NCBI RefSeq assembly: GCF_003206615.1
Contig: NZ_PZJW01000012.1
Span: 186,001-250,000 of the forward strand
Direction of reading: 5' to 3'
Length of the DNA: 64,000 nucleotides
Source of the DNA: Salinicola acroporae
GTDB lineage: Bacteria > Pseudomonadota > Gammaproteobacteria > Pseudomonadales > Halomonadaceae
The notes under the pieces are model-generated. The model did not search any database. It was not told the DNA's origin and saw only the letters and a program-made list of their open reading frames with translations. The translations under genes and the position numbers were made by a program. Each line of letters begins with the position of its first letter. The stretch's first letter is position 1. This document shows, one piece after another, positions 15,791-28,997 of this stretch.

Positions 15791-16777
15791 ATGATCAAGC
15801 AACTCATCACCGCCGGCGTGATCGCCAGCAGCCTCGGGCTGGGCTTCTCGGCCCAGGCCGCACCACTCAACGAGAACCTGTGCGGTGGCAGTCCGAATGG
15901 CCTGTGGCAACTGCTGGGTGTCGGCATGGACGGCGTGCTCAAGGCCGAGAATCCGGATTCCAGCGTCACCTATCAGACGTCGTCCGGCGGCTTTGCCAAC
16001 ATCATCCAGATGCAGGGCGATACCTGTGACCTCGCCATCGTCCACGCCGGCGAAGCGATGAAGGCGATCTCCGGCGAACCGCCATTCCCCAAGGCGGTAA
16101 ACAACTTCCGGGCGATCGGCGTGCTGTATAACTGGGCCCCGATGCAGTGGGTCATGACCCAGGACTTCTCCGACAAGTACGGCATCCACTCGCTGCAGGA
16201 TATCGCCGACAAGAAGCCACCGCTGAGACTGGTACTCAATCGCAAGGGCATTCTTCCCTCGATGGTCGGCGAGTCGTCCCTCAAAGCGCTCGGCGTGACC
16301 CCGGACGACATCGAGTCCTGGGGAGGCAGCGTGGTCTACCAGGGCTCAGCGGTCGCCACCGAGCTGGTCCAGAACCGTCGCGCCGACATGTGGGCCAACG
16401 AGACCTTCGTCGGCAGCAGCGCGATCAGTGGCATGGCGGAAAATCGCCCAATGACCTTGCTGGCAGTGCCGGATAGCGTGATCAAGGCCATGGAGGAGGA
16501 GTACGGCGACAAGCCCTATACCGTATCGGCCGATGCCTATACCTGGCTCGATCATCCGGTTCAGACGCATACCGCCGCGGCCATGCTGGTGGCGCCGGCC
16601 ACGATGGCCGACGATGAGGCTTACCGCATCACCAAGGATCTGATCGAACACATCGACGTCATGCAAGGGGTGCACCCGGCGATGAAGCAGCTCACACCCG
16701 AAACCCTGCTCGGGCAATCGGTCGTCGAGTTGCATCCCGGCGCCAAGCGCGCTTACGAGGAGGCGGGTCTACTCTAG
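15791..16777 (+). CDS. TAXI-family TRAP transporter solute receptor
   Basis: A 328-residue periplasmic binding protein with an N-terminal signal peptide (residues 1-22, cleavage after 'SAQA') and the TAXI core: 'GSPNGLWQLLGVGMDGVLKAE' early on, 'TSSGGFANIIQMQGDTCDLAI' and the late 'VHPAMKQLTPE'. The start ATG has GGAGA 9 bases upstream. TAXI receptors feed fused TRAP permeases, and exactly such a permease is the next gene. The usual ligands are C4/C5 dicarboxylates or amino acids; in this operon a pyridine carboxylate such as quinolinate, or maleate/fumarate, is plausible. No ligand can be read from sequence. Confidence 0.85.
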   Translation: MIKQLITAGVIASSLGLGFSAQAAPLNENLCGGSPNGLWQLLGVGMDGVLKAENPDSSVTYQTSSGGFANIIQMQGDTCDLAIVHAGEAMKAISGEPPFPKAVNNFRAIGVLYNWAPMQWVMTQDFSDKYGIHSLQDIADKKPPLRLVLNRKGILPSMVGESSLKALGVTPDDIESWGGSVVYQGSAVATELVQNRRADMWANETFVGSSAISGMAENRPMTLLAVPDSVIKAMEEEYGDKPYTVSADAYTWLDHPVQTHTAAAMLVAPATMADDEAYRITKDLIEHIDVMQGVHPAMKQLTPETLLGQSVVELHPGAKRAYEEAGLL

Positions 16778-17036
16778 CAGCCTTTCGGGCTTGACCGATC
16801 GTCGCGAAAACGACGGATTTTGTGTCAGATTGATCGATCGGATGAGGCGAATAGCCCCGCTATTTAACGAGTCCGAGCGAGTGAAGCTGACCAAAAGCCC
16901 GAGGTTTGCAGCAGATCAGCGTTACGTCCGACAGGCTGCCAGGCGGTCCGCGCGGCGCCGGAAGCCTTGGTGACCGGCGCCGGCGACGCCGCCAATGCCA
17001 CTCGACCTCACGACACCACTCTCATGGGACGACAAC
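16778..17036 (+). other. Gap between TRAP receptor and permease
   Basis: 259 bases without a convincing gene. A short inverted repeat AATAGC-CCC-GCTATT lies at 16850-16864; its stem is only 6 bp and no T-run follows. It may moderate transcription or mRNA stability between receptor and permease, which usually need different amounts. Confidence 0.4.
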
Positions 17037-18971
17037 ATGACTCGCGGTAATCTCACTCGCCTGGCCAACGGCCTGATGTCGACGGGGCGCCGCCGCCAGC
17101 CGCAAGGCATCTTCAGCTGGCTGCTGAAGTGCTATGCAGCCGTCATTGCCGTGTGGGTAATCTGGACGACGATCTTCTCCACGGCGGATGTGCTGGCGCT
17201 GACCATCGTCTTCCTGACCCTGATGCTGGTGCTGGTGTTCTTCCTGATCGCGCCCAACGACAAACCCGGCGCGGAGACGCCGAGCCCGCTCGACTGGGGT
17301 CTGGTGGTTGCCAGTGCCTCCTGCGCCATCTTCTTCATCGGTTCGATCGACGATCTGGCCAACCGGATCAGCCTGTTGACGCCCCTGACCCCCGCACAGC
17401 TCGGCTTCGGTGTGCTGATCACCCTGCTCACCCTGGAGGCCACACGTCGCACCGTCGGTCTTGGCCTGACCCTCATCGCCACCGTTTTCATCATTTACAA
17501 CCTGGCGGGACACCTGCTGTCGGGAATGTTCCGTCACGGCTACCTGCCGTTATCCTATTTCATCGATGTCAACGTCTATACCAGCGACGGGCTGTTCGGC
17601 GTTCCGGTTCGCGTCGCCGCCACCTACGCCTTTCTGTTCGTGATGTTCGGGACCTTTCTCGACAGCGTCCGCGGCGGCGATTTCTTCTTCAATCTCGCCG
17701 CCCGCCTGACCGGACGCTCGACCGGCGGGCCGGCCAAGGTCGCGGTGGTCTCCTCGGCGCTGTTCGGTACGGTTTCCGGAAGCCCCACCGCGGACGTGGT
17801 CACCACCGGCTCCATCACCATTCCCCTGATGCAGCGCCTCGGTTTCTCGCGCAACCTGGCGGCCGGGATAGAAGTCGCCGCCTCCACCGGTGGCAGTATC
17901 CTGCCGCCGGTCATGGGCTCGGTCGCCTTCATCATGGCCGAGTACACCGGCATCGCCTACAGCGAGATCATCATCGCCGCCCTAGTCCCCGCGCTGCTCT
18001 ACTACATGGGCGTACTGGTGCAGGTGCATCTGTACTGCAAGCGCCACGGACTCGGCCAGCTGGCAGCCGAGGCAGTGCCGTCATGGTCTACGGTGATGCG
18101 TGGCGCCTGGCTATTTTTGATCCCGCTGGCGGCGATGGTGATTCCCCTGGTGATCGGTTACTCGCCGACCTTCGTGGCGCTGTTCGGTACCGGCGCGATC
18201 GTGATCTGCTCGCTGTTCAGTCGCCAGCACCGGCTGACACCGAAGTCGCTGCTCGACGCCCTGGCCACCACCACCTTTCGCATGGTCGGCGTCACGGCCG
18301 CCTGCGCCGCGGCGGGACTGGTGATCGGCGGCATCACCATGACCGGTCTCGCGACCAAGTTCTCGTCGATCGTGATGCTGCTGGCCGGCGACAGCACCTT
18401 CATGACGCTGTTCTTCACCGCGATCATCACCATCATCCTCGGCATGGGCATGCCGACACCCAGCGCCTACATCCTGGCCGCCGTGCTGCTCGGGCCAACC
18501 CTGGTCAACACGCTCGGGCTGCCGATGATGTCGTCGCATCTGTTCATCCTCTACTACGCGGTACTCTCGGCATTGACGCCACCGGTCGCCGTCGCGGCCT
18601 ACGCGGCATCGGCGATCTGCGGGGGTAACCCGGTGAGCATCGCGGCACAGGCGGTACGCCTGGCGATCTTCGCCTTCGTGTTCCCGTTCGCCATCGTCTA
18701 CAACCCCAGCATCACGCTGGACGGCACGCTGCTGAGCTGCGGGCTGGAGATCGCCCAGGCCTTCATCGCGACCCTGGCCATCGCCATTGCGACCGAGGGC
18801 TATCTCCGCCAGCGGTTGTCTCCCGGCGTACGACTGCTGCTGATGGCCGCCGGGCTGACCCTGCTCTCTCCGAGCGGCTGGCCGGTACTCGGCGGCCTCA
18901 TCGTGGTTGCCGTCATTGTCGCGTATCAACTGTTCGGCGCTGGCGCTCGTCGCCCGGCAACCCATCCGTGA
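17037..18971 (+). CDS. Fused TRAP transporter permease (4TM + 12TM)
   Basis: A 644-residue inner-membrane protein. The first part (to about residue 150) holds the small DctQ-like segment, and the rest is the DctM-like large permease with 'FGTVSGSPTADVVTTGSITIPLMQ' (about 240-265), 'GGSILPPVMGSVAFIMAEYTG' and 'GMGMPTPSAYILAAV'. All are typical of TAXI-associated TRAP permeases. I use ATG 17037; an upstream in-frame ATG at 16995 has no better ribosome site. It works with the receptor just upstream, driven by a sodium gradient. Its place in the nic run suggests import of a pathway substrate. Confidence 0.88.
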   Translation: MTRGNLTRLANGLMSTGRRRQPQGIFSWLLKCYAAVIAVWVIWTTIFSTADVLALTIVFLTLMLVLVFFLIAPNDKPGAETPSPLDWGLVVASASCAIFFIGSIDDLANRISLLTPLTPAQLGFGVLITLLTLEATRRTVGLGLTLIATVFIIYNLAGHLLSGMFRHGYLPLSYFIDVNVYTSDGLFGVPVRVAATYAFLFVMFGTFLDSVRGGDFFFNLAARLTGRSTGGPAKVAVVSSALFGTVSGSPTADVVTTGSITIPLMQRLGFSRNLAAGIEVAASTGGSILPPVMGSVAFIMAEYTGIAYSEIIIAALVPALLYYMGVLVQVHLYCKRHGLGQLAAEAVPSWSTVMRGAWLFLIPLAAMVIPLVIGYSPTFVALFGTGAIVICSLFSRQHRLTPKSLLDALATTTFRMVGVTAACAAAGLVIGGITMTGLATKFSSIVMLLAGDSTFMTLFFTAIITIILGMGMPTPSAYILAAVLLGPTLVNTLGLPMMSSHLFILYYAVLSALTPPVAVAAYAASAICGGNPVSIAAQAVRLAIFAFVFPFAIVYNPSITLDGTLLSCGLEIAQAFIATLAIAIATEGYLRQRLSPGVRLLLMAAGLTLLSPSGWPVLGGLIVVAVIVAYQLFGAGARRPATHP

Positions 18972-19003
18972 ACACGCCCTGACCACCCACAAGGAGCAAC
19001 GAC

Positions 19004-19876
19004 ATGACCCTCGAAAGACGAACGCCCCCCCAGGCCTGGCAGCTCGACCCGCTGGTGCTGGACGACCAGATCCGTGCCTTCCTGCGCGAAGATATCGGCT
19101 ACTTCGATCTCACCGCGACGCTACTGATCGATGCCGAGCTGCCCGGTCGCTTCGAGATGCGCGCTCGGGAACCGATGACGCTCGCCGGCCTTGCCGCTGC
19201 CGCCCGTGTTTTCACGTTCTACGACGCCAGCATTCAGGTCGAGGTGCTGGCAAGGGATGGCCAGCAGGTCGACAAGGGCACCACCCTGCTCAAGATCGAA
19301 GGTCCGGCGCGCAGCATTCTGACCGCCGAACGCACCGCACTGAACCTGGCCCAGCATCTTTCCGGCATCGCCACCGTCACCGCGACCTATATCGAGCGGA
19401 TCGCCGGTACCCGGGCGCAATTGATCGATTCCCGCAAGACCACGCCAGGGCTTCGCGCCATGGAGAAGCATGCCGTGGCCTGCGGTGGCGGTCGCAACCA
19501 CCGCCTGGGTCTGGACAACGGCATCATGCTCAAGGACAACCACATCGCCGTCTGCGGCAGCATCACCGCCGCCGTCGCCCGCGCCAGGTCCAGCGTGCCG
19601 GTGCTGACCAAGGTCGAGGTCGAGTGCGACCGCTTCGACCAGGTGGAAGAAGCGCTCGCCGCCGGGGCCGACGTGATCATGCTCGACAACATGGCGGTGG
19701 AAGAGATGCAGCGGGCGGTGGCCATGGTCGATGGCCGTGTGCTGCTGGAGGCGTCCGGCGGCGTGCGCCTGGAAACCATTCGCGCCATCGCCGAGACCGG
19801 CGTCGACTTCATCTCGGTCGGACGCATCACGCAGTCGTCGCCAGCGCTGGACATCGGCCTCGACGACGCGGAGTGA
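19004..19876 (+). CDS. nadC: Quinolinate phosphoribosyltransferase (NadC-type, carboxylating)
   Basis: A 290-residue type-II phosphoribosyltransferase: quinolinate + PRPP gives nicotinate mononucleotide + CO2 + PPi. All key stretches look intact: 'TAERTALNLAQHLSGIAT' (about 108-125), 'DSRKTTPGLRAMEKHAVACG' (about 144-163), 'NHRLGLDNGIMLKDNH' (165-180), 'KVEVEC' (about 203-208), and 'DVIMLDN' with 'LEASGGVRLETI'. The conserved Arg, Lys and His residues that hold the two carboxylates are present. Canonical nadC genes sit with nadA/nadB or elsewhere; this one lies 32 bases after a TRAP permease and just before a PhnN-phosphorylase fusion inside the nic operon. It may serve catabolism rather than NAD synthesis. 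Whether a second nadC exists cannot be seen here. Confidence 0.88.
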   Translation: MTLERRTPPQAWQLDPLVLDDQIRAFLREDIGYFDLTATLLIDAELPGRFEMRAREPMTLAGLAAAARVFTFYDASIQVEVLARDGQQVDKGTTLLKIEGPARSILTAERTALNLAQHLSGIATVTATYIERIAGTRAQLIDSRKTTPGLRAMEKHAVACGGGRNHRLGLDNGIMLKDNHIAVCGSITAAVARARSSVPVLTKVEVECDRFDQVEEALAAGADVIMLDNMAVEEMQRAVAMVDGRVLLEASGGVRLETIRAIAETGVDFISVGRITQSSPALDIGLDDAE

Positions 19877-19881
19877 GCGGG

Positions 19882-21942
19882 ATGCGTTCGAACAATCCGC
19901 CGCGCGGCTTACTGGTACTGGTCGTCGGCCCCAGCGGGGCCGGCAAGGATACCCTGATGGAGCGGGCGCTGGCCGATTACACCTGCACCCAGCATGTGCT
20001 CCTGACGAGGCGGGTCATCACCCGTCCTGCCGATGCGGGCGGTGAAGATCATCAGGCGATGAGCGATTCGGATTTCGACGCGGCGCTCGGCGCCGGCGAG
20101 TTCCTGATCCACTGGCATGCCCACGGCCTGCGCTATGCGCTGCGCGCGTCGATTCGCGATGACCTGGCCCGCGGGCGCACGGTGCTGGCCAATGTGTCGC
20201 GCAAGGTCATCGGCGCCATCGCCGGACTGGGGCGGCCGGTTGCCGTGATCGACATCACGGCATCGCGCGAGGTCCGCGCGCGGCGCCTGTCGATGCGCGG
20301 GCGCGAAACCGCCAGCGACATCCTCGCCCGGCTCGAGACGCTGGAATGGCAGCCACCACGAGGCGTAGACCACTATCGGGTCGATAACGATGCCGACCTG
20401 AACACCGGCATCGAACGCTTTCTCATTGCGCTGGCCCGGGCCTGTGGTGGCGACACGCCGATTCGCCACCTGCCGATCGATAGCGGTCCTCGCCTGATCG
20501 GCTTCCTGTCGCTCCGCCACCCGCTGCGCGATGCGATACAGGCACTGCCCACGCCCCGCGTCGAGGTCGATATCCTCGGCCGGCCGCTGGTACTGGAAGT
20601 GCAGTGGGTCGACGACGACCACTGGCTGGCCCCCGATGCCATCGGCCTGGCTCGCGCCACCCTGGCACGGCTCGGGCTGATCGCCGGCATGCCCCTGCAA
20701 CTGCAACCGGCACCACCGCCTGTCGGCGCTGCGGCACTGCGGCGCAAGCTTCGCGGCCAGTCATTGAACGAAGACGAGTTCTTCGGCGTGGTCCACGACA
20801 TCGCCGACAACCGCTTCGACGAAGCGTCGACCGGGGCATTCCTGGCCAGCCTGGCCAATCACCTCGACGACGACGAGATCATCGCGCTGACCCGTGCCCG
20901 GGCGCGGATCGCCCAGACGTTGCACTGGGATCGCCCGATGGTGGTCGACAAGCACTCGATAGGTGGGCTCCCCGGCAGCCGGATCACGCTGATCGTGATC
21001 CCGATCGTCGCCGCGCATGGGCTGACCATTCCCAAGGCGTCGTCACGGGCGATCACCTCGCCGGCCGGCACCGCCGATACCATGGCGCTGTTCGCCGATG
21101 TCGAGCTCGGCCCGGACGACGTTCGCCGCGTCGTCAACGGGGCCAACGGCTGCATCGTCTGGAACGGGCGTCTGTCGCACACGCCCTTCGACGACATGAC
21201 CAACGCCATCGTGCGGCCGCTGGATCTGGACTCGGCGCGGATGAGCGTCGCTTCTATCCTGTCCAAGAAGCTGGCCGCCGGCGTCACCCATCTGGTCGTC
21301 GACCTGCCGACCGGGCCCCAGGCCAAGTTGCCGACCCAGGAGAAGGCGCAGGAGCTGAAGCGGCTGATGGAGTCGGTGGGGGCCGCGCTCGGCATCCGGG
21401 TACTGGCACGGATCACCGACGGCACCCAGCCGGTGGGCAGGGGCATCGGCCCCAACCTGGAAGCACGCGACGTCCTGCAGGTGCTGAACAACGACCCCGG
21501 CGCGCCGCGAGACCTGCGTGACAAGGCGCTCGATTTCGCCGGTGCGCTGCTCGACTGGGCACCGGACGTGAGACCCGGCGAGGGGCGTGCGCGCGCCGAG
21601 ACTCTGCTCGCCAGTGGCGCGGCAAAAGCCCGCTTCGAGCGCATCATCGAGCTGCAGGGTCGGCGTGGACTTCCGGCCGCGCCCGGCCCTTTTCACGCCG
21701 ATATCGTCGCGCCGGCTAGTGGCCGTATCAACCATATCGATATCTGGCGACTCAACTCGATCGCTCGACTCACCGGCGCCCCGGGCGACACACTGGCCGG
21801 ACTCGACCTCGTCGCCCACAAGGGTGAGCAGGTCGACATCGGTCAACCGCTCTACCGGCTATACGCCTCCAGCCAAAGCGCGCTCGACCGGGTCGTCGCC
21901 TTTGCCCGGACCGGCAACGCCTTCGAGCTGAAACGGGAGTGA
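19882..21942 (+). CDS. Fusion: ribose 1,5-bisphosphokinase (PhnN) + AMP-phosphorylase/thymidine-phosphorylase-like
   Basis: A 686-residue two-domain protein. Residues 10-185 are PhnN-like, with P-loop 'GPSGAGKDT' (16-24) and the Arg-rich 'RRLSMRGRET' lid; PhnN makes PRPP from ribose 1,5-bisphosphate and ATP. Residues about 195-686 match archaeal-type AMP phosphorylases of the DeoA superfamily: a small N-terminal beta domain, 'DKHSIGGLPGSR' (from 355), 'SSRAITSPAGTADTM' (from 388), and a C-terminal domain. AMP phosphorylase converts NMP + Pi to base + ribose 1,5-bisphosphate, the substrate of the fused kinase, so the fusion would channel it to PRPP. Start ATG 19882 is chosen; GTG 19873 overlapping the nadC stop is possible. 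With NadC upstream, NaMN is an attractive nucleotide substrate (inference). Confidence 0.85.
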   Translation: MRSNNPPRGLLVLVVGPSGAGKDTLMERALADYTCTQHVLLTRRVITRPADAGGEDHQAMSDSDFDAALGAGEFLIHWHAHGLRYALRASIRDDLARGRTVLANVSRKVIGAIAGLGRPVAVIDITASREVRARRLSMRGRETASDILARLETLEWQPPRGVDHYRVDNDADLNTGIERFLIALARACGGDTPIRHLPIDSGPRLIGFLSLRHPLRDAIQALPTPRVEVDILGRPLVLEVQWVDDDHWLAPDAIGLARATLARLGLIAGMPLQLQPAPPPVGAAALRRKLRGQSLNEDEFFGVVHDIADNRFDEASTGAFLASLANHLDDDEIIALTRARARIAQTLHWDRPMVVDKHSIGGLPGSRITLIVIPIVAAHGLTIPKASSRAITSPAGTADTMALFADVELGPDDVRRVVNGANGCIVWNGRLSHTPFDDMTNAIVRPLDLDSARMSVASILSKKLAAGVTHLVVDLPTGPQAKLPTQEKAQELKRLMESVGAALGIRVLARITDGTQPVGRGIGPNLEARDVLQVLNNDPGAPRDLRDKALDFAGALLDWAPDVRPGEGRARAETLLASGAAKARFERIIELQGRRGLPAAPGPFHADIVAPASGRINHIDIWRLNSIARLTGAPGDTLAGLDLVAHKGEQVDIGQPLYRLYASSQSALDRVVAFARTGNAFELKRE

Positions 21943-21949
21943 TGATGCC

Positions 21950-23116
21950 ATGTCGCGGACGGATGTAAGCGACGATGCCACGGTCGACGCCTTCGGGCGT
22001 CTGATCGGGAGCCTGCTCGATCAGAATCTCGATCAGCGCAAGCCACAGGTGGTGACATTCTGGTGCGGTGCCGGGTTCTCCAAGGCATGGGACCCTCGCT
22101 CTCCCACCGATGGCGAGCTGTTCGCGATCGATCTCGACGATATTCGTGACTTCCCCAACCTGCAGCACTTGATGCACGTCATCGGCTGGGAGGATTACCG
22201 TCATCTCGATTTCGAGCGTTTCAAGAACCTGCGCTACGTGCTCGACATGCAGGTGCGCTATCCCGATATCCGCAACCGGTATTTCGACGATCAGAACCTG
22301 CGCCTGAGCATCAACGAGTTGCGAACGCTGGTCATGCGCCGCTTCACCGCCGCCTGCGACATCCACAACGTCGACGACGCCAGTCTGCGTTTCACCTCGC
22401 CTTACGACAGCGACGGCCAGCGCGCCATCGTCCGGCTGTTCTCCGCACTGGAAGACCGTGCCAGCAGCGCGAACCTGGGCGCCAACTGGCCGCTATACCA
22501 TTTCCTGACCACCAACTACGACTTCACCATCGAGACCATCCTCGAACACGTCTATCGCCAGAACGCGCCGGTCTTTGGTCGTCTCTATCGGGGCGTCACG
22601 CCTCAACGGATCTGTGGCGGCACGATCTGGGAGCATCTGCCACGCACCGTCGACCGCAACGTGATCAAGATCAACGGCGGATTCGAGATTCTGCCGACGG
22701 CTCAAGGCTTCGACTTCGAATATCGCCAGCGCAGCGACGCCGAGATTCGCCAGGAGCCGCCGCTGCTGATCCTGCCATCCCAGGTCCAGGACTACGACGA
22801 GCCCTATTTCCATCAGGTATTCCCCAAGGCCGTGCGCCTGTTGCGGGAAACCGATGTCCTGGTGATCGTCGGATACAGCATGCCGCAGGAAGACTCCCTG
22901 GTGCGCTTCATCCTGCGTCAGCTCGCCGAGAGCCCCTTCGACGCCACCGGCAAGCATGTCTTCGTCATCGATACCAAGAACCACGCCACCATCAAGTCGC
23001 GACTGGAAGAGATGTTCTTCTATCTGCCGCGCACCGGCTGGCCACGCGAGCACTATTTCAGTGGCCGTTTCGAAGATTTCTGTCAACGCGTCGTCGAGCA
23101 GGGCGAGGTGCGGTAA
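21950..23116 (+). CDS. SIR2-like NAD-binding-fold protein
   Basis: A 388-residue protein starting 7 bases after the phosphorylase stop, with GGGAG upstream. It has the SIR2_2 Rossmann elements: 'WCGAGFSKAWDP' (GAG at 40-42, Ser44), 'LTTNYDFTIE' (Asn189, Asp191) and 'VIVGYSMPQEDSLVRFIL' (about 304-321). In active relatives a catalytic His is expected in a 'KLHG'-like motif; here the equivalent looks like 'IKINGG' with Asn242. The protein may therefore bind or sense NAD-like molecules, or work on another N-ribosyl bond, rather than being a standard NADase. Many SIR2-like proteins act in phage defence, but no defence partner is visible and it is embedded in a pyridine-nucleotide operon. Function unknown. 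Confidence 0.75.
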   Translation: MSRTDVSDDATVDAFGRLIGSLLDQNLDQRKPQVVTFWCGAGFSKAWDPRSPTDGELFAIDLDDIRDFPNLQHLMHVIGWEDYRHLDFERFKNLRYVLDMQVRYPDIRNRYFDDQNLRLSINELRTLVMRRFTAACDIHNVDDASLRFTSPYDSDGQRAIVRLFSALEDRASSANLGANWPLYHFLTTNYDFTIETILEHVYRQNAPVFGRLYRGVTPQRICGGTIWEHLPRTVDRNVIKINGGFEILPTAQGFDFEYRQRSDAEIRQEPPLLILPSQVQDYDEPYFHQVFPKAVRLLRETDVLVIVGYSMPQEDSLVRFILRQLAESPFDATGKHVFVIDTKNHATIKSRLEEMFFYLPRTGWPREHYFSGRFEDFCQRVVEQGEVR

Positions 23117-23218
23117 TGCCATGCCCGCCCACTCGACTTGCCACGACCCTGAGCCCGAGCGCAGCTCGCCCGCGTCGGACTCGCAATGCACCCAGGCCTG
23201 TTCACCGAGGAAAGCGCC

Positions 23219-23974
23219 ATGACCCAGCTGTATCGCATCGGCCAGATCGTCCCGAGCTCCAACGTCACCATGGAAACCGAGATTCCCGCGATGCTGACCG
23301 CCCGACAACTCATCCGCCCGGCGCAGCGTTTCACCTTCCACTCCAGCCGAATGCGCATGAAGACCGTGCGCAAGGAGGAGCTGGCCGCCATGGACGGGGA
23401 ATCCGATCGCTGTGCGCTGGAACTCTCCGATGCCCATGTCGACGTGATGGGCTATGCGTGTCTGGTCGCGATCATGTCGATGGGCCCCGGCTACCACCGT
23501 GAATCGCAGAAGCGCCTTCATCAGCGCAGCGTCGAGAACGGGCATCCCACGCCGGTCATCACCAGCGCGGGCGCGTTGGTCGACGCGCTGAAAGTAATGA
23601 ACGCCCGTCGCGTCGTTGTCGTGGCGCCATACATGAAACCGCTCACCGAGCTGGTGGTGAACTACATCCGCGAAGAGGGCGTCGAGGTGCTCGGTTATCG
23701 CGCCCTGGAGATACCCGACAACCTCGATGTCGCCCGCCACGACCCGATGCGCCTGCCGGAGATCGTCGCCGAACTCGACGTCAGCGACGCCGATGCCATC
23801 GTGCTGTCGGCATGCGTGCAGATGCCGTCGCTGGCTGCCGTCTCCAAGGTCGAGGCATTGACCGGCAAGCCCGTGGTGACCGCCGCCATCGCCACCACCT
23901 ACGCCATGCTCAAGGCACTCGACCTCGAGCCCGTCGTTCCGGGCGCCGGCGCGCTGCTCTCGGGCGCCTATTGA
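23219..23974 (+). CDS. nicE: Maleate cis-trans isomerase
   Basis: A 251-residue Asp/Glu-racemase-fold enzyme converting maleate to fumarate, the last step of the Nic pathway. ATG 23219 has a GAGGAAAG site. Two catalytic cysteines are visible: Cys81 in 'GYACLVAIMS' and Cys199 in 'LSACVQMPS', aligning with Cys82 and Cys200 of P. putida NicE. The N-terminal 'GQIVPSSNVTMETEIP' and 'HSSRMRM' are typical of maleate isomerases rather than of arylmalonate decarboxylases. It is followed by nicF after 84 bases. Confidence 0.93.
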   Translation: MTQLYRIGQIVPSSNVTMETEIPAMLTARQLIRPAQRFTFHSSRMRMKTVRKEELAAMDGESDRCALELSDAHVDVMGYACLVAIMSMGPGYHRESQKRLHQRSVENGHPTPVITSAGALVDALKVMNARRVVVVAPYMKPLTELVVNYIREEGVEVLGYRALEIPDNLDVARHDPMRLPEIVAELDVSDADAIVLSACVQMPSLAAVSKVEALTGKPVVTAAIATTYAMLKALDLEPVVPGAGALLSGAY

Positions 23975-24058
23975 ACAGGTTCATCGCCAGCAGGCAAGCC
24001 CGCGGCCGGGCTGGCCTGCTTTCCGCTATTCGTGAAGCCCATTCTCAAGGGGGTCGTC

Positions 24059-24685
24059 ATGTCTGAATCCGCCGCCAGCAACTACGCCGGCGTCTGGGGC
24101 AACCGCATCGGCTTCGGCCACAAGGCTGCCCTGCTGGTCATCGATTTCATGAAGGGATATACCACCGAAGGCGCGCCGCTCTACGCCCCGGGCGTGGTCT
24201 CCGCCGTCAAGATAGGCGGTGAGCTGTTGCAGGTCGCCCGCGAGACCGCGACCCCGATCATCCACACCAATATTCGCTATCAGCCTGGCAGCTTCCAGGA
24301 TGGCGGCATGTGGGTGAAGAAGGCCCCGGTGATGCGGGACATGGTCGAGGGCAACCCGCTGGCCGAATTCTGCGCCGAGGTGGCGCCTCGAGACGACGAG
24401 CTGGTCGTCACCAAGCAGTACGCCAGTGCGTTTTTCGGTACCTCGCTGGCGCCGACGCTGCATAGCCAGGGAGTCGATACGCTGATCGTGATCGGCTGCT
24501 CCACCAGCGGCTGCGTGCGGGCCACCGCCGTCGATGGCGTGCAGCACGGGTTCCGCGTCATGGTGGTCCGCGATGGCGTCGGTGATCGACATGAAGGGCC
24601 GCACGAGGCCAACCTGTTCGACATCGACAGCAAGTATGGCGACGTCATCGACAGCGACGAGGCCATGGCGTGGCTCAAGCGCTGA
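24059..24685 (+). CDS. nicF: Maleamate amidohydrolase (isochorismatase family)
   Basis: A 208-residue cysteine hydrolase that deamidates maleamate to maleate and ammonia. The catalytic triad is Asp29 ('LLVIDFMKGY'), Lys119 ('LVVTKQYASAFFGT') and Cys152 ('CSTSGCVRATAVDG'). ATG 24059 is chosen because AAGGGGG lies just upstream; the open frame extends nine residues further. Length and motifs match P. putida NicF. It is the last gene of the plus-strand run and convergent with nicR. Nicotinamidases and N-carbamoylsarcosine amidases share the fold; the position beside nicE decides. Confidence 0.92.
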   Translation: MSESAASNYAGVWGNRIGFGHKAALLVIDFMKGYTTEGAPLYAPGVVSAVKIGGELLQVARETATPIIHTNIRYQPGSFQDGGMWVKKAPVMRDMVEGNPLAEFCAEVAPRDDELVVTKQYASAFFGTSLAPTLHSQGVDTLIVIGCSTSGCVRATAVDGVQHGFRVMVVRDGVGDRHEGPHEANLFDIDSKYGDVIDSDEAMAWLKR

Positions 24686-24836
24686 GAAACCCATGTCGAA
24701 CGCCACGGCGCTCGTCCCGGGAACCGACGTGCCTGCCCCGGGATACGAATGGACTTGCCTCGAGAGCTCGAGACCGACACCGCCGCGGATCCAGATCGAG
24801 CGGTGTCGCTCGGTGACCGGCCGTATGGAGGGGTTA

Positions 24837-25328
24837 TCACTCCTCCGAGGCGTTCATCTTGTCCAGCAGGTGCATGAGCGCCACGCGCTCGGCAGGATTG
24901 AGCTTGCCCATCGTCATATCGGAGATACGCTTGGCTCGCGGCACCATCGTCGCGACCAGCTCGCGCCCGGCCAGCGTGATGTCGACGATCACCTTGCGTT
25001 GATCGTTGGGATCGGATGACAGCGATATCCAGTCACGCGCCTTGAGCCGCTTGATCACGCCGCGAATGGTAGCGGGGTCGATGGCCGTCGCCTTGACCAG
25101 ATCGGTGAGCGCGCTAGGGCCGTTGTCCATGATCGTGCAGAGCGTGACGAACTGTATGGCGGTGAGCTGTTTGTCACAGCTCTGGCTTTGGAAGATCGCG
25201 GTATGCCGCTGATAGGCACGCCGCAGCAGATGGCCGACCTGCTCGGAGAATTCGTAATCCTGCTGGTGGGGCGTCGCGGCGGCGTTCGGGTCCACTTCAT
25301 CGACGGCATGACCGAAGGCATTCGACAT
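24837..25328 (-). CDS. nicR: MarR-family repressor of the nic genes
   Basis: A 163-residue winged-helix regulator. ATG 25328 has GGAG 9 bases upstream; a TTG 15 bases earlier is an inferior alternative. The central part 'LTAIQFVTLCTIMDNGP' and 'LTDLVKATAIDPATIRGVIKRLKARDWI' is the DNA-binding helix-turn-helix, with the wing Asp-Arg motif varied to 'SDPNDQRKVIVDIT'. P. putida NicR is a MarR protein released by 6-hydroxynicotinate. The gene lies between nicF and the catalytic dehydrogenase operon and is divergent from the latter, a usual place for a local repressor. Confidence 0.87.
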   Translation of the reverse strand: MSNAFGHAVDEVDPNAAATPHQQDYEFSEQVGHLLRRAYQRHTAIFQSQSCDKQLTAIQFVTLCTIMDNGPSALTDLVKATAIDPATIRGVIKRLKARDWISLSSDPNDQRKVIVDITLAGRELVATMVPRAKRISDMTMGKLNPAERVALMHLLDKMNASEE

Positions 25329-25708
25329 GATCTCACTCTCCAAGCACCATCCTCCAGGCCTCGCCCAGCCGCCACCGCCCGCCGGGCATCGTCGATTTGC
25401 ATCGCGGCGGCGGGCGCGGCAAGCAGGGAAAAAGCGCAGAGCGAGGCTGTGATTTTAGGTGTAGTCGCTGTAATTTCTGAGAAAAATACTACACCATTTG
25501 GTCAAATTTCATCCACCCACAAACCGAAAGAATCGCCATTCAACTGTTTTTCATGAATTAATTACCAGCTGATGGCGAGACAGGAAATCATCGACGATCG
25601 CAGTAACAGTGTCTACGTGCATTTCTACGCGAAATGATTGACTCACCGGCTCGCCAGCCAGCCTGTTTCCGGTGGAGACTTTCCCTACAACAACAGAGGC
25701 CGTGCGGC
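25329..25708. promoter_or_regulatory. Divergent nicR / dehydrogenase control region
   Basis: 380 bases, AT-richer at 25450-25560. GGTGTAGT at 25458-25465 is mirrored by ACTACACC at 25488-25495 (8-base perfect inverted repeat, 22-base spacer). GTGTCTACG occurs at 25609-25617, followed closely by TTCTACGCG. The same GTGTCTACG core is in the nicX promoter region. These are candidate regulator sites. On the minus strand TTGACC overlaps this region but no good -10 is at the right distance. Confidence 0.5.
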
Positions 25709-27964
25709 ATGACGTCGACTTCACTCCCCACTCGCGAGCATCTACTGCAGGGCACCGACATGCTGGTGGTCTATCGCGCTCCGGTGATACCGCCGAAGCC
25801 CGCTCCCGGCCAGCCGGGCACACGCTCCGATTTCATCCCCACCGAGCCGGAGCTGTTCATCGCCCTGCTTGCCGATGGCCGCTTCCTCGCCTTCAACGGC
25901 CACGTCGACCTGGGCACCGGCGTCCGGACTGCGCTGACGCAGATCGTCGCGGAGGAACTCGATGTCGATGTCGAGCGCGTCATCATGGTATTGGGCCATC
26001 CGTTCGAGGTGCCGAATCAGGGGCCGACCATCGCCAGCGCCACCATCCAGATTTCCGCCGCACCGCTGCGCTGCGCTGCCGCCCAGGCCAGGCAGTACCT
26101 GCTGGCGCGGGCCGCCCGGCGCCTCGACATACCGGCGCAACAGCTGCAGGTGGAAGACGGGATCGTCTCCGTGACTCCGGGCGATGCCAGCCGAGGGCTG
26201 CGTTACGAGTCACTGCTGGCCGGCGAGCGCGTCGCCCTCGAGCTCGACACCGAGATACCGACCAAGGCGAGCCGTGACTACCGGGTGGTGGGACGCAGCA
26301 CGCCGCGGGTCGACATTCCCGCCAAGGCCAGCGGCGAGTTCGTTTATGTCCACGATGTTCGCCTGCCTGGCATGCTGCACGGGCGCGTCGTGCGACCACC
26401 TTACGCGGGGCATGATCTGGGCACGTTCGTCGGTCGCAGCCTGATCGAGGCCGAGGAGGCGTCTGTGCGAGACCTGCCGGGTTTCGTTGCCCTGATCGTC
26501 AAGGGGGATTTCGTCGGTGTCGTGGCCGAGCGGGAAGAGCAGGCCGCGCTCGCCGCCAAGCGCCTCAAGGTCCGCTGGCGTCCACTGCCGGCACTTCCCG
26601 ATCTCGACGATCTGGAGACCGCGCTGCGCCGCCAGCCGGCCGAACATCGCCCGTTGCTGCAGCAAGGCGACGTCGATGCGGCGCTGGCCACGGCATCGAC
26701 GGTACTCGAGCGCACCTACCTCTGGCCCTATCAGTTGCACGGCTCGATCGGCCCCTCCTGTTCGGTCGCCGATTATCGCGACGGCTATCTGACGCTTCAT
26801 TCCGGCACCCAGAATCCGCACAGCCTGCGTGCCGATATCGCGACGCTGCTGGCCATGGACGAAAGCCGTATCGAGATCCGCCGCCATGAAGCGGCCGGCT
26901 GCTACGGTCGCAACTGTGCCGATGACGTCGGCGCCGACGCCGCGCTGCTGTCGAACGCCGTGGGCCGGCCGGTGCGCGTGCAGCTGGATCGCGCTCAGGA
27001 ACATGAATGGGAGCCGAAGGGAACCGCGCAATTGATGGATATCCGTGGCGGCAGCGACGACGACGGCAAGCTCTGCGCCTATGACTTCGTGACTCGCTAC
27101 CCCTCCAACGACGCCCCGACACTGGCCCTGCTGTTGACCGGTGCCAGACAGCCCAGCGACGTACCTTTCCAGATGGGGGATCGAACCTCGGTGCCTCCTT
27201 ATCGCTACCCGCACCTGAGAGTCGCCTGCGACGATGTCGCGCCGATCGTCCGAGCCTCCTGGCTACGCGGAGTCTCGGCCCTTCCCAACTGTTTCGCTCA
27301 CGAGAGCTTCATCGACGAACTGGCCGAACGCGCCGGCGTCGACCCGGTGGAATATCGGCTACACTACCTGGAGCCGCGCGCGCAGGCGCTGGTGGCCGCC
27401 GTTGCCGAGCGGGCCAACTGGTTCGACCGACCGCCGGCAACCGCTGTCGGCGATGGCTGGTCCGAGGGCCATGGTTTCGCCTATGGCCACTACGTGCACA
27501 GCAGGTTCCCGGGATTCGGCGCGGCCTATGCCGCCTGGGCAGTGACCCTCCAGGTTCATCGCGATAGCGGCCGGATTCGTGTCGTGCGCCTCACGGTGGG
27601 CCAGGATGCCGGGCTGATGATCAATCCCGCCGGCGTGCGCCATCAGGTTCACGGCAACGTCATCCAGACCCTGAGCCGAACGCTGAAGGAGTGCGTGAGC
27701 TTCGAACGGGGCCTACCGGTCAGCCGCGAATGGGGTGGCTATCCGATCCTGCGATTCGACGAACTGCCGCTCATCGATCTGCTGCTGCTCGACAATGCCG
27801 GCGAGGCGCCGCTGGGCGTGGGTGAATCCACGTCACTGCCCGGGGCCCCGGCCATTGCCGCGGCGCTTTTCGATGCCACCGGCGTCCGTTTTCGCGAGCC
27901 CCCCTTCACCCCGGAGCGGGTGCGGTCGGCGTTGGCTTCGGCAGGGTCGACGGTCGCCGCCTGA
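25709..27964 (+). CDS. nicB: Molybdopterin-binding nicotinate dehydrogenase catalytic subunit
   Basis: A 751-residue xanthine-oxidase-family large subunit lacking the cytochrome c tail of NicB. ATG 25709 has a GAGG site. N-terminal 'FNGHVDLGTGVRTALTQIVAEEL' and 'GPTIASATIQISAAPLR' are early molybdopterin-binding segments. The middle part carries 'RHEAAGCYGRNCADDVGADAALL'-type pterin contacts, and the C-terminal 'GVGESTSLPG' has the catalytic Glu706. It has no iron-sulfur or heme motif, so it must use NicA (11124-11618) and the cytochrome subunit (8137-11127) for electron flow. XdhC and MocA genes follow in the same operon. Assignment to nicotinate rests on context; hydroxylation of a related ring is possible. 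Confidence 0.82.
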   Translation: MTSTSLPTREHLLQGTDMLVVYRAPVIPPKPAPGQPGTRSDFIPTEPELFIALLADGRFLAFNGHVDLGTGVRTALTQIVAEELDVDVERVIMVLGHPFEVPNQGPTIASATIQISAAPLRCAAAQARQYLLARAARRLDIPAQQLQVEDGIVSVTPGDASRGLRYESLLAGERVALELDTEIPTKASRDYRVVGRSTPRVDIPAKASGEFVYVHDVRLPGMLHGRVVRPPYAGHDLGTFVGRSLIEAEEASVRDLPGFVALIVKGDFVGVVAEREEQAALAAKRLKVRWRPLPALPDLDDLETALRRQPAEHRPLLQQGDVDAALATASTVLERTYLWPYQLHGSIGPSCSVADYRDGYLTLHSGTQNPHSLRADIATLLAMDESRIEIRRHEAAGCYGRNCADDVGADAALLSNAVGRPVRVQLDRAQEHEWEPKGTAQLMDIRGGSDDDGKLCAYDFVTRYPSNDAPTLALLLTGARQPSDVPFQMGDRTSVPPYRYPHLRVACDDVAPIVRASWLRGVSALPNCFAHESFIDELAERAGVDPVEYRLHYLEPRAQALVAAVAERANWFDRPPATAVGDGWSEGHGFAYGHYVHSRFPGFGAAYAAWAVTLQVHRDSGRIRVVRLTVGQDAGLMINPAGVRHQVHGNVIQTLSRTLKECVSFERGLPVSREWGGYPILRFDELPLIDLLLLDNAGEAPLGVGESTSLPGAPAIAAALFDATGVRFREPPFTPERVRSALASAGSTVAA

Positions 27965-28025: not shown

Positions 28026-28997
28026 ATGCAACATCTCGATCTTCAGGTACTCGACGCGGCGCTCGAATGGGCCAACGACGGCGAGACGATCTGGTTATGC
28101 AGCGTACTGGCGACGTTCGGCTCGTCACCGCGCGAGCCGGGCTCGATGCTGGTCGCGAAAGCGGACGGCAGCCATGTCGGCTCGCTCTCCGGTGGCTGTA
28201 TCGAGGAGGATTTCCTCGGCAGGATCGCCGAGGGGCATTTCGGCGATGCGCTGTCGGTGGTGCGCTACGGCGAAGGGGCCGACGAATCGCCCCAGGTCTC
28301 GCTGCCCTGTGGCGGGATTCTGGATGTGCTCGTCGAACGTCTGACGCCGGATGCCGAGACCCTGACACATCTGGAGGTGCTCCATGCCACCCTGCTCGGT
28401 CAACGCTCGCTGGTGCGCCGGATCGACCTGGCGAGCGGGCGCAAGCGCTTCATCGAAGCCGGCGAGAACGGCCCCCGGGTCGAGCGCGACGGCGAGGTCA
28501 TCCACCTTCGCGTGGGGCCGGCGCTGCGCCTGATCATCGCCGGAATCTCGCCGGTTTCCCGTTTCTGCGCCGAATTCGCCCGTGCGCTGGGCTTCGAGGT
28601 GATCGTCTGCGATCCCAGGGAAGAAGCCCGGCGCGATTTCCCGATCGCGGGGATCGAGCTGCAGTCGGTGCTGCCGTCGCTGTTCATCGGCTCCGGCGCC
28701 GCGCATGCCGCCACTGCCATTGTCGCGCTGACCCATGACCCCCGGATCGACGATCTGGCCATGATCGAAGCCGTACGCACGCCGGCGTTCTACATCGGGG
28801 TGATGGGATCGAGGCGGACGTCCGAAAAGCGGGCCGAACGCCTCAAGCGCTCCGGCGGGCTGGATGACGACGCCATCGCGCGCATCCAGATGCCGATCGG
28901 GCTGCACCTCGACAGCAAGACGCCGGCCGAGATCGCCCTCGCCGTCGTCGCCGATGTGCTCCGCGTGCGGCGCGGCAAGTCACGCCATGAGCTCTGA
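28026..28997 (+). CDS. xdhC: XdhC/CoxI-family molybdenum cofactor maturation protein
   Basis: A 323-residue protein that binds molybdenum cofactor and promotes its sulfuration and insertion into xanthine-oxidase-type enzymes. The N-terminal CoxI part has 'ATFGSSPREPGSMLVA', 'GSLSGGCIEEDFL' and 'LPCGGILDVLVERL'. The C-terminal Rossmann-like XdhC part has 'GVMGSRRTSEKRAERL' and 'HLDSKTPAEIALAVVADVL'. ATG 28026 has AGGAAGGA upstream. It lies 61 bases after the catalytic dehydrogenase gene and overlaps the next gene by 11 bases, so it is presumably dedicated to that enzyme. Confidence 0.9.
   Translation: MQHLDLQVLDAALEWANDGETIWLCSVLATFGSSPREPGSMLVAKADGSHVGSLSGGCIEEDFLGRIAEGHFGDALSVVRYGEGADESPQVSLPCGGILDVLVERLTPDAETLTHLEVLHATLLGQRSLVRRIDLASGRKRFIEAGENGPRVERDGEVIHLRVGPALRLIIAGISPVSRFCAEFARALGFEVIVCDPREEARRDFPIAGIELQSVLPSLFIGSGAAHAATAIVALTHDPRIDDLAMIEAVRTPAFYIGVMGSRRTSEKRAERLKRSGGLDDDAIARIQMPIGLHLDSKTPAEIALAVVADVLRVRRGKSRHEL

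Follow-up and report, generated by a model that had tools for sequence, protein, structure and literature searches.

A stand-alone SIR2 protein with asparagine at the catalytic histidine position is linked to nadC in Salinicola

The window analysed here, a 64,000-nucleotide stretch of the Salinicola acroporae genome, encodes a SIR2 protein of 388 residues with Asn where active relatives have the catalytic His. Its predicted fold is that of the SIR2 class and the Asn is invariant across the family. In Salinicola the gene is linked to nadC and is under strong purifying selection. Our leading interpretation, which we hold to be about evenly balanced between right and wrong, is that the protein is a conditional NAD+ N-glycosidase that acts as a guard or homeostat of the NAD pool.

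Genomic context

The sequence-only reading had placed the gene in a nicotinate operon, 7 bases behind a phosphorylase fusion. The spacing is confirmed: the fusion ends with a stop codon at 21940-21942 and the SIR2 ATG follows after 7 bases (Table 1). The nadC gene upstream encodes the sole QPRTase found in the genome. For the phosphorylase domain of the fusion, PRK04350 scores 564.9 (cut-off 434) and AMP_phos scores 395.7, under its cut-off of 535; the nearest solved structures are 4ga4-4ga6, which we take to be archaeal AMP phosphorylase. On the other side, the ATG of the nicE-like gene lies at 23219, after GAGGAAAG and about 102 bases beyond the SIR2 stop, with an earlier in-frame ATG at 23186. 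The names nicE, given in the sequence-only reading, and nicF are presumptive. Nicotinate genes around the nadC unit encode an Fe-S subunit, a cytochrome c protein, an FAD monooxygenase, a Mo-binding subunit, XdhC and a MobA-like protein. A search for promoters and terminators across 18900-25700 gave nothing above chance. The nadC unit and the SIR2 gene presumably share a transcript.

Table 1. Features of the window and gene pairs in related loci
Feature	Position	Strand	Basis
TAXI-type TRAP binding protein	15791..16777	+	TIGR02122
TRAP fused permease	16995..18971	+	TIGR02123
nadC, quinolinate phosphoribosyltransferase	19004..19876	+	NCBIfam TIGR00078, 329 bits against 198.4
PhnN (ribose 1,5-bisphosphokinase)/thymidine/nucleotide-phosphorylase-family fusion	19882..21942	+	TIGR02322, 170.8 bits against 156
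NG-type SIR2_2 protein, 388 aa	21950..23116	+	ATG start; Pfam PF13289, AlphaFold2, VIA-align
Asn189 codon in TTNYD	22514..22516	+	Equivalent to Asn of TTNxD in ThsA and Avs5
Asn242 codon AAC (NG motif replacing HG)	22673..22675	+	Aligns with His of KLHGS
nicE-like Asp/Glu-racemase-family protein, maleate isomerase candidate	23219..23974	+	Pfam Amdase on 23186-23974
Isochorismatase-fold hydrolase, nicF candidate	24032..24685	+	Pfam PF00857
MarR-family regulator	24837..25343	-	Pfam PF01047
Molybdopterin-binding hydroxylase subunit, nicB-like	25634..27964	+	Pfam MoCoBD_1, MoCoBD_2 on 25700-27961
XdhC-like Mo-hydroxylase maturation factor	28116..28997	+	Pfam XdhC_C on 28116-28994
SIR2 and deoxyribosyltransferase-family pairs	L063:8001-9633, L064:4523-6246, L065:8004-9731		

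Together, nadC and the fusion (19004-21942) suggest a possible route that leads from quinolinate to nicotinate and recycles PRPP. NadC would convert quinolinate and PRPP to NaMN, the phosphorylase half of the fusion would turn NaMN into nicotinate and ribose 1,5-bisphosphate, and the PhnN half would remake PRPP; the cycle would feed quinolinate into the surrounding nicotinate genes. Plasmids of Variovorax, Pacificitalea and Paraburkholderia carry the nadC-fusion cassette too, as do alphaproteobacteria. A TAXI-type TRAP binding protein is likewise found near nadC in loci L066 and L178 and in the plasmid locus L123. Comparable nadC-bug27-phnN neighbourhoods, in which nadC is accompanied by phnN and the gene of a quinolinate-binding protein, are described for Variovorax and Jezberella in a survey that reads them as NAD synthesis and whose text does not contain the word phosphorylase (PMC11452294). 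Unlike the window, these neighbourhoods have no SIR2 in the part of that paper that describes them.

Protein family and predicted fold

The window protein scores 27.1 bits against the Pfam cut-off of 24.5 for SIR2_2 (PF13289). This is the one Pfam domain in its 388 residues, and an NCBIfam scan of the protein gave no match. It contains GAGFS (residues 40-44), TTNYD (187-191) and GYS..D (308-315). An AlphaFold2 model, with 40 family members as input, has a pLDDT of 87.5 and a pTM of 0.89. VIA-align places SIR2-HerA SIR2 subunits closest among solved folds (Z 16.5-19.1 over about 308-332 residues), followed by canonical sirtuins (Z about 14). Foldseek orders them differently, with sirtuins first; we rely on the VIA-align re-alignment, whose rows are confined to Foldseek's list. 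The SIR2 assignment of the sequence-only reading is borne out. The predicted Rossmann fold, with GAGxS and TxNxD, is that of the SIR2/sirtuin superfamily, and NG takes the place of the HG motif with its catalytic His.

The sequence match to ThsA is weak, with E 0.0075 in PADLOC and E 0.13 in the PDB profile search; a PDB chain named USG protein gives E 0.0052 in the latter.

Asparagine at the catalytic position

In a profile alignment, KINGG of the window protein aligns with KLHGS of the SIR2-HerA-type SIR2 of [Muricauda] okinawensis (L089), which has a PADLOC SIR2 match of 2.7e-109. Asn242 therefore occupies the position of the catalytic His, as had been proposed from the sequence. The family alignment has 66 rows, namely the window protein and members collected on plasmids, in genomes and on viral contigs. 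Position 242 is Asn in all 65 readable rows, far beyond chance; L099 has no readable motif. The genome scan was pattern-based and may have missed members. Rows free of the Asn search pattern comprise 15 of the 56 genome-scan rows (14 readable, all 14 Asn) and all five viral rows (all Asn), 19 readable rows in total and every one Asn. Two weak cases, L062 (frame broken just after the Asn) and L100 (distant), are counted in both the 65 and the 19. One further member, L044, lies on the minus strand and was omitted from the alignment; it also reads KINGG.

With 65 of 65 rows in agreement, including those 19, local loss is ruled out. Judged from the alignment, the exchange of His for Asn is an old trait common to the family. 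A catalytic His at another site was sought across the 66 rows and rejected: in every column, His makes up about half of the entries at most. The NAD-site motifs (GAG, TTNYD, KxNGG and GYS..D) are retained with few or no exceptions among 64-65 readable rows; Asn189 is Asn in 64 of 64. E246, Q280 and Y282 are likewise conserved across phyla, each in 63-64 of 65 rows. The distant SIR2 protein at L100:7611-8606 (24% identity) reads KLNGS and lies outside the family, so the NG form is also present beyond this SIR2_2 family.

The sequence-only reading had considered that the Asn might leave the protein inactive or directed at a new bond. Neither is required. PaAvs5-1 is described in a 2026 paper as a working NADase with NG instead of HG, in which exchange of the Asn for Ala or Gln abolished protection and exchange for His lowered it, so that Avs5 requires Asn or His at this position; NAD+ dropped threefold upon infection (PMC12931631). 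This was the only match with both NG and HG motif terms in the open-licence literature searched. Because NG works in Avs5, the default expectation is an active N-glycosidase rather than inactivity or new chemistry, and by this analogy the window protein is probably active. By its published description PaAvs5-1 shares GAGxS, TTNxD and NG with the window protein; the NAD+ hydrolysis demonstrated for it (PMC12931631) is a precedent, by which alone NAD+ cleavage may be expected here. Avs5 differs in being a large STAND ATPase joined to a SIR2 domain, whereas the window protein is a single domain with neither a fused STAND NTPase nor a sensor.

Two other systems offer partial parallels. The SIR2 subunits of SIR2-HerA (Nezha) are the nearest solved folds, but the member compared has KLHG and a HerA partner; the window protein has NG, and no HerA ATPase gene was found among the window neighbour genes scanned. 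ThsA of Thoeris shares a SIR2-like NADase domain, but has His152 and a SLOG-like domain in its published description (PMC7272460). No TIR gene (ThsB) was found among the same neighbours.

Binding of NAD(P) or NaMN without cutting, in a sensor or scaffold, would fit the replacement of the general-base His by Asn, and H152A in ThsA is described as abolishing NAD+ cleavage (PMC7272460). However, Asn works in Avs5 (PMC12931631), and the conservation of E246, Q280 and Y282 exceeds the needs of simple binding. The ThsA variant also cannot separate binding from cutting, because neither N112A nor H152A bound NAD+ (PMC7272460). We regard a purely binding role as quite unlikely.

Linkage to nadC in Salinicola

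The SIR2 gene is present in 16 of 18 Salinicola genomes searched. The same 16 carry nadC, in one copy each, and nadA. SIR2 and nadC are direct neighbours in 12 of the 16 carriers; in the other four, including the window, only the fusion lies between them. The full-length fusion and a nicE homologue are each found in the same 4 of 18 genomes, and the 12 other carriers have neither anywhere. SIR2 therefore tracks nadC, and the fusion tracks nicotinate catabolism. The proposed nicotinate operon holds for the tight spacing in the window, but the constant partner is nadC, and we reject SIR2 as a part of nicotinate catabolism. The XdhC-like gene is retained near SIR2 in all 15 other Salinicola loci examined.

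Among 13 loci (78 pairs), the median dN/dS is 0.087 for SIR2, 0.160 for nadC and 0.089 for xdhC. Together with the invariant motifs, this excludes random decay to a pseudogene, S. tamaricis excepted. The SIR2 gene of Salinicola tamaricis (G013, L043:5952-7114/L062) has a frameshift near residue 243, either real or a sequencing error.

Salinicola NadC shares 58-65% identity with its counterparts in the alpha- and betaproteobacterial nadC-fusion cassettes found here and 44-51% with those in 25 other genomes of Halomonadaceae. All Salinicola NadC used in a tree, which has long-branch warnings, group with the cassette NadC (100/99), apart from other Halomonadaceae. Horizontal insertion of nic genes around an old Halomonadaceae nadC is less likely given this grouping. 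Instead, the housekeeping NadC of Salinicola appears to have been displaced by one from a catabolic cassette, and most species would later have lost the catabolic genes and kept nadC, SIR2 and xdhC.

The linkage bears on a metabolic alternative, in which SIR2 is an N-glycosidase that acts on NaMN or a similar pyridine nucleotide and provides a second path from quinolinate-derived NaMN to nicotinate. SIR2 adjoins NadC, which makes NaMN, and the nucleotide-phosphorylase-like fusion. In three of three alphaproteobacterial loci (L063-L065; Pfam for two), a nucleoside 2-deoxyribosyltransferase-family gene lies directly downstream of SIR2, which also speaks for such chemistry. The 12 carriers with neither full-length fusion nor nicE argue against it, as NaMN breakage there would waste the product of the sole QPRTase, and so do orphan SIR2 members with no nadC or nic homologue nearby. 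We find this path decidedly improbable.

Relatives and defence neighbourhoods

Halomonadaceae and some alphaproteobacterial SIR2 members form one tree group (93/100). The arrangement TAXI-TRAP-nadC-fusion-SIR2 recurs, with gene order and strand unchanged, in an alphaproteobacterial metagenome-assembled genome (L066) whose SIR2 has 43% identity. Six other nadC-fusion cassettes have no adjacent SIR2 (L122, L123, L124, L177, L178 and L145; the L145 genome carries an unlinked SIR2). In Larsenimonas, Halotalea and Caenispirillum the SIR2 gene is located away from nadC. Since Larsenimonas and Halotalea keep it there, linkage to nadC is not needed for SIR2 function.

Of 19 loci sampled outside this subclade, 9 carry a defence-type gene in the neighbourhood of SIR2. 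Neighbours of SIR2 include a GajB-type helicase (L084), SIR2-HerA (L089), a type III methylase (L068), a DEAD/ResIII helicase (L023), GT4-conflict (L067), SMEK/STAND (L077) and NACHT (L093). At L083:3618-9122, GajA (2.1e-276) and GajB (5.6e-244) of Gabija type are directly followed by an NG-type SIR2. PADLOC scans with a threshold of E 1e-30 matched 59 families among 90 neighbours outside the subclade (of 107, from 19 loci) and one family among 66 subclade neighbours (of 79, from 10 loci); short, overlapping and duplicate genes were omitted, as was L061, where the gene caller chose an antisense frame. A defence-island or mobile context is present for many relatives and was not found for the subclade loci sampled. 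The non-defence setting seen from the sequence is borne out for Salinicola; the defence-island homologues that would have spoken against it do occur, but outside the subclade.

Five viral contigs (L101-L105) have an ATPase gene abutting an NG-type SIR2, AbiLi-like in L101, the one scanned; the two genes are possibly a defence cassette. We read these contigs as P2-like prophage-type because their neighbours look portal- and terminase-like. P2-like phages are described as carrying such hotspots, and a figure legend in that source names SIR2 (PMC9122126). The viral SIR2 proteins are remote from the rest, with 25-29% identity and a stem branch of 3.78 in the tree. A tblastn search of the phage collection gave no match; the viral scan gave none with a single sequence and five with a profile.

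These neighbourhoods raise the prospect of a plain antiphage NADase that sits in the nadC unit by chance and would deplete NAD+ when triggered by infection. Its relatives stand beside GajA/GajB, SIR2-HerA, a type III methylase, an AbiLi-like ATPase, NACHT and SMEK/STAND, and the gene is scattered in its occurrence, with 20 of 117 relatives and 3 of the order's 293 genomes carrying it. Yet the subclade lacks defence-type neighbours, the gene is near-fixed in Salinicola with no mobile-element sign there, and it evolves as slowly as xdhC. We consider this account rather unlikely.

Interpretation

Our preferred reading remains the conditional NAD+ N-glycosidase. A stand-alone SIR2_2 protein, from a cross-phylum family with NG for the catalytic HG, would most likely share the activity of the SIR2 domain of Avs5, likewise of NG type, and cut the bond between nicotinamide and ribose in NAD+ or in a closely related pyridine nucleotide. 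It would probably be restrained until triggered. The lineage of Halomonadaceae and some alphaproteobacteria would have left the phage-defence setting of its family. Fixed directly behind nadC in Salinicola, the protein would be made together with an NAD-precursor enzyme and guard the NAD pool. Trigger, substrate and role are our inference. Against this reading, a triggered NADase is usually accompanied by a partner gene or a sensor domain, and neither was seen for SIR2 in Salinicola.

A bolder possibility, rather unlikely in our judgement, is that an antiviral-type SIR2 lineage has been domesticated into NAD metabolism, and that the NG-type SIR2 of the nadC unit determines how large the pyridine-nucleotide pool (NAD+ or NaMN) is, or how fast it turns over, in healthy cells. 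If so, a bacterial SIR2 class otherwise tied to immunity would have a metabolic role, and its sister members would have an enzyme of the deoxyribosyltransferase family as partner.

The NG active site is not peculiar to Avs5 and marks a whole stand-alone SIR2 family. One lineage of this defence-associated family has been fixed beside an NAD-precursor gene, which poses a testable question: can an immune-type NADase turn into a housekeeping regulator of NAD?
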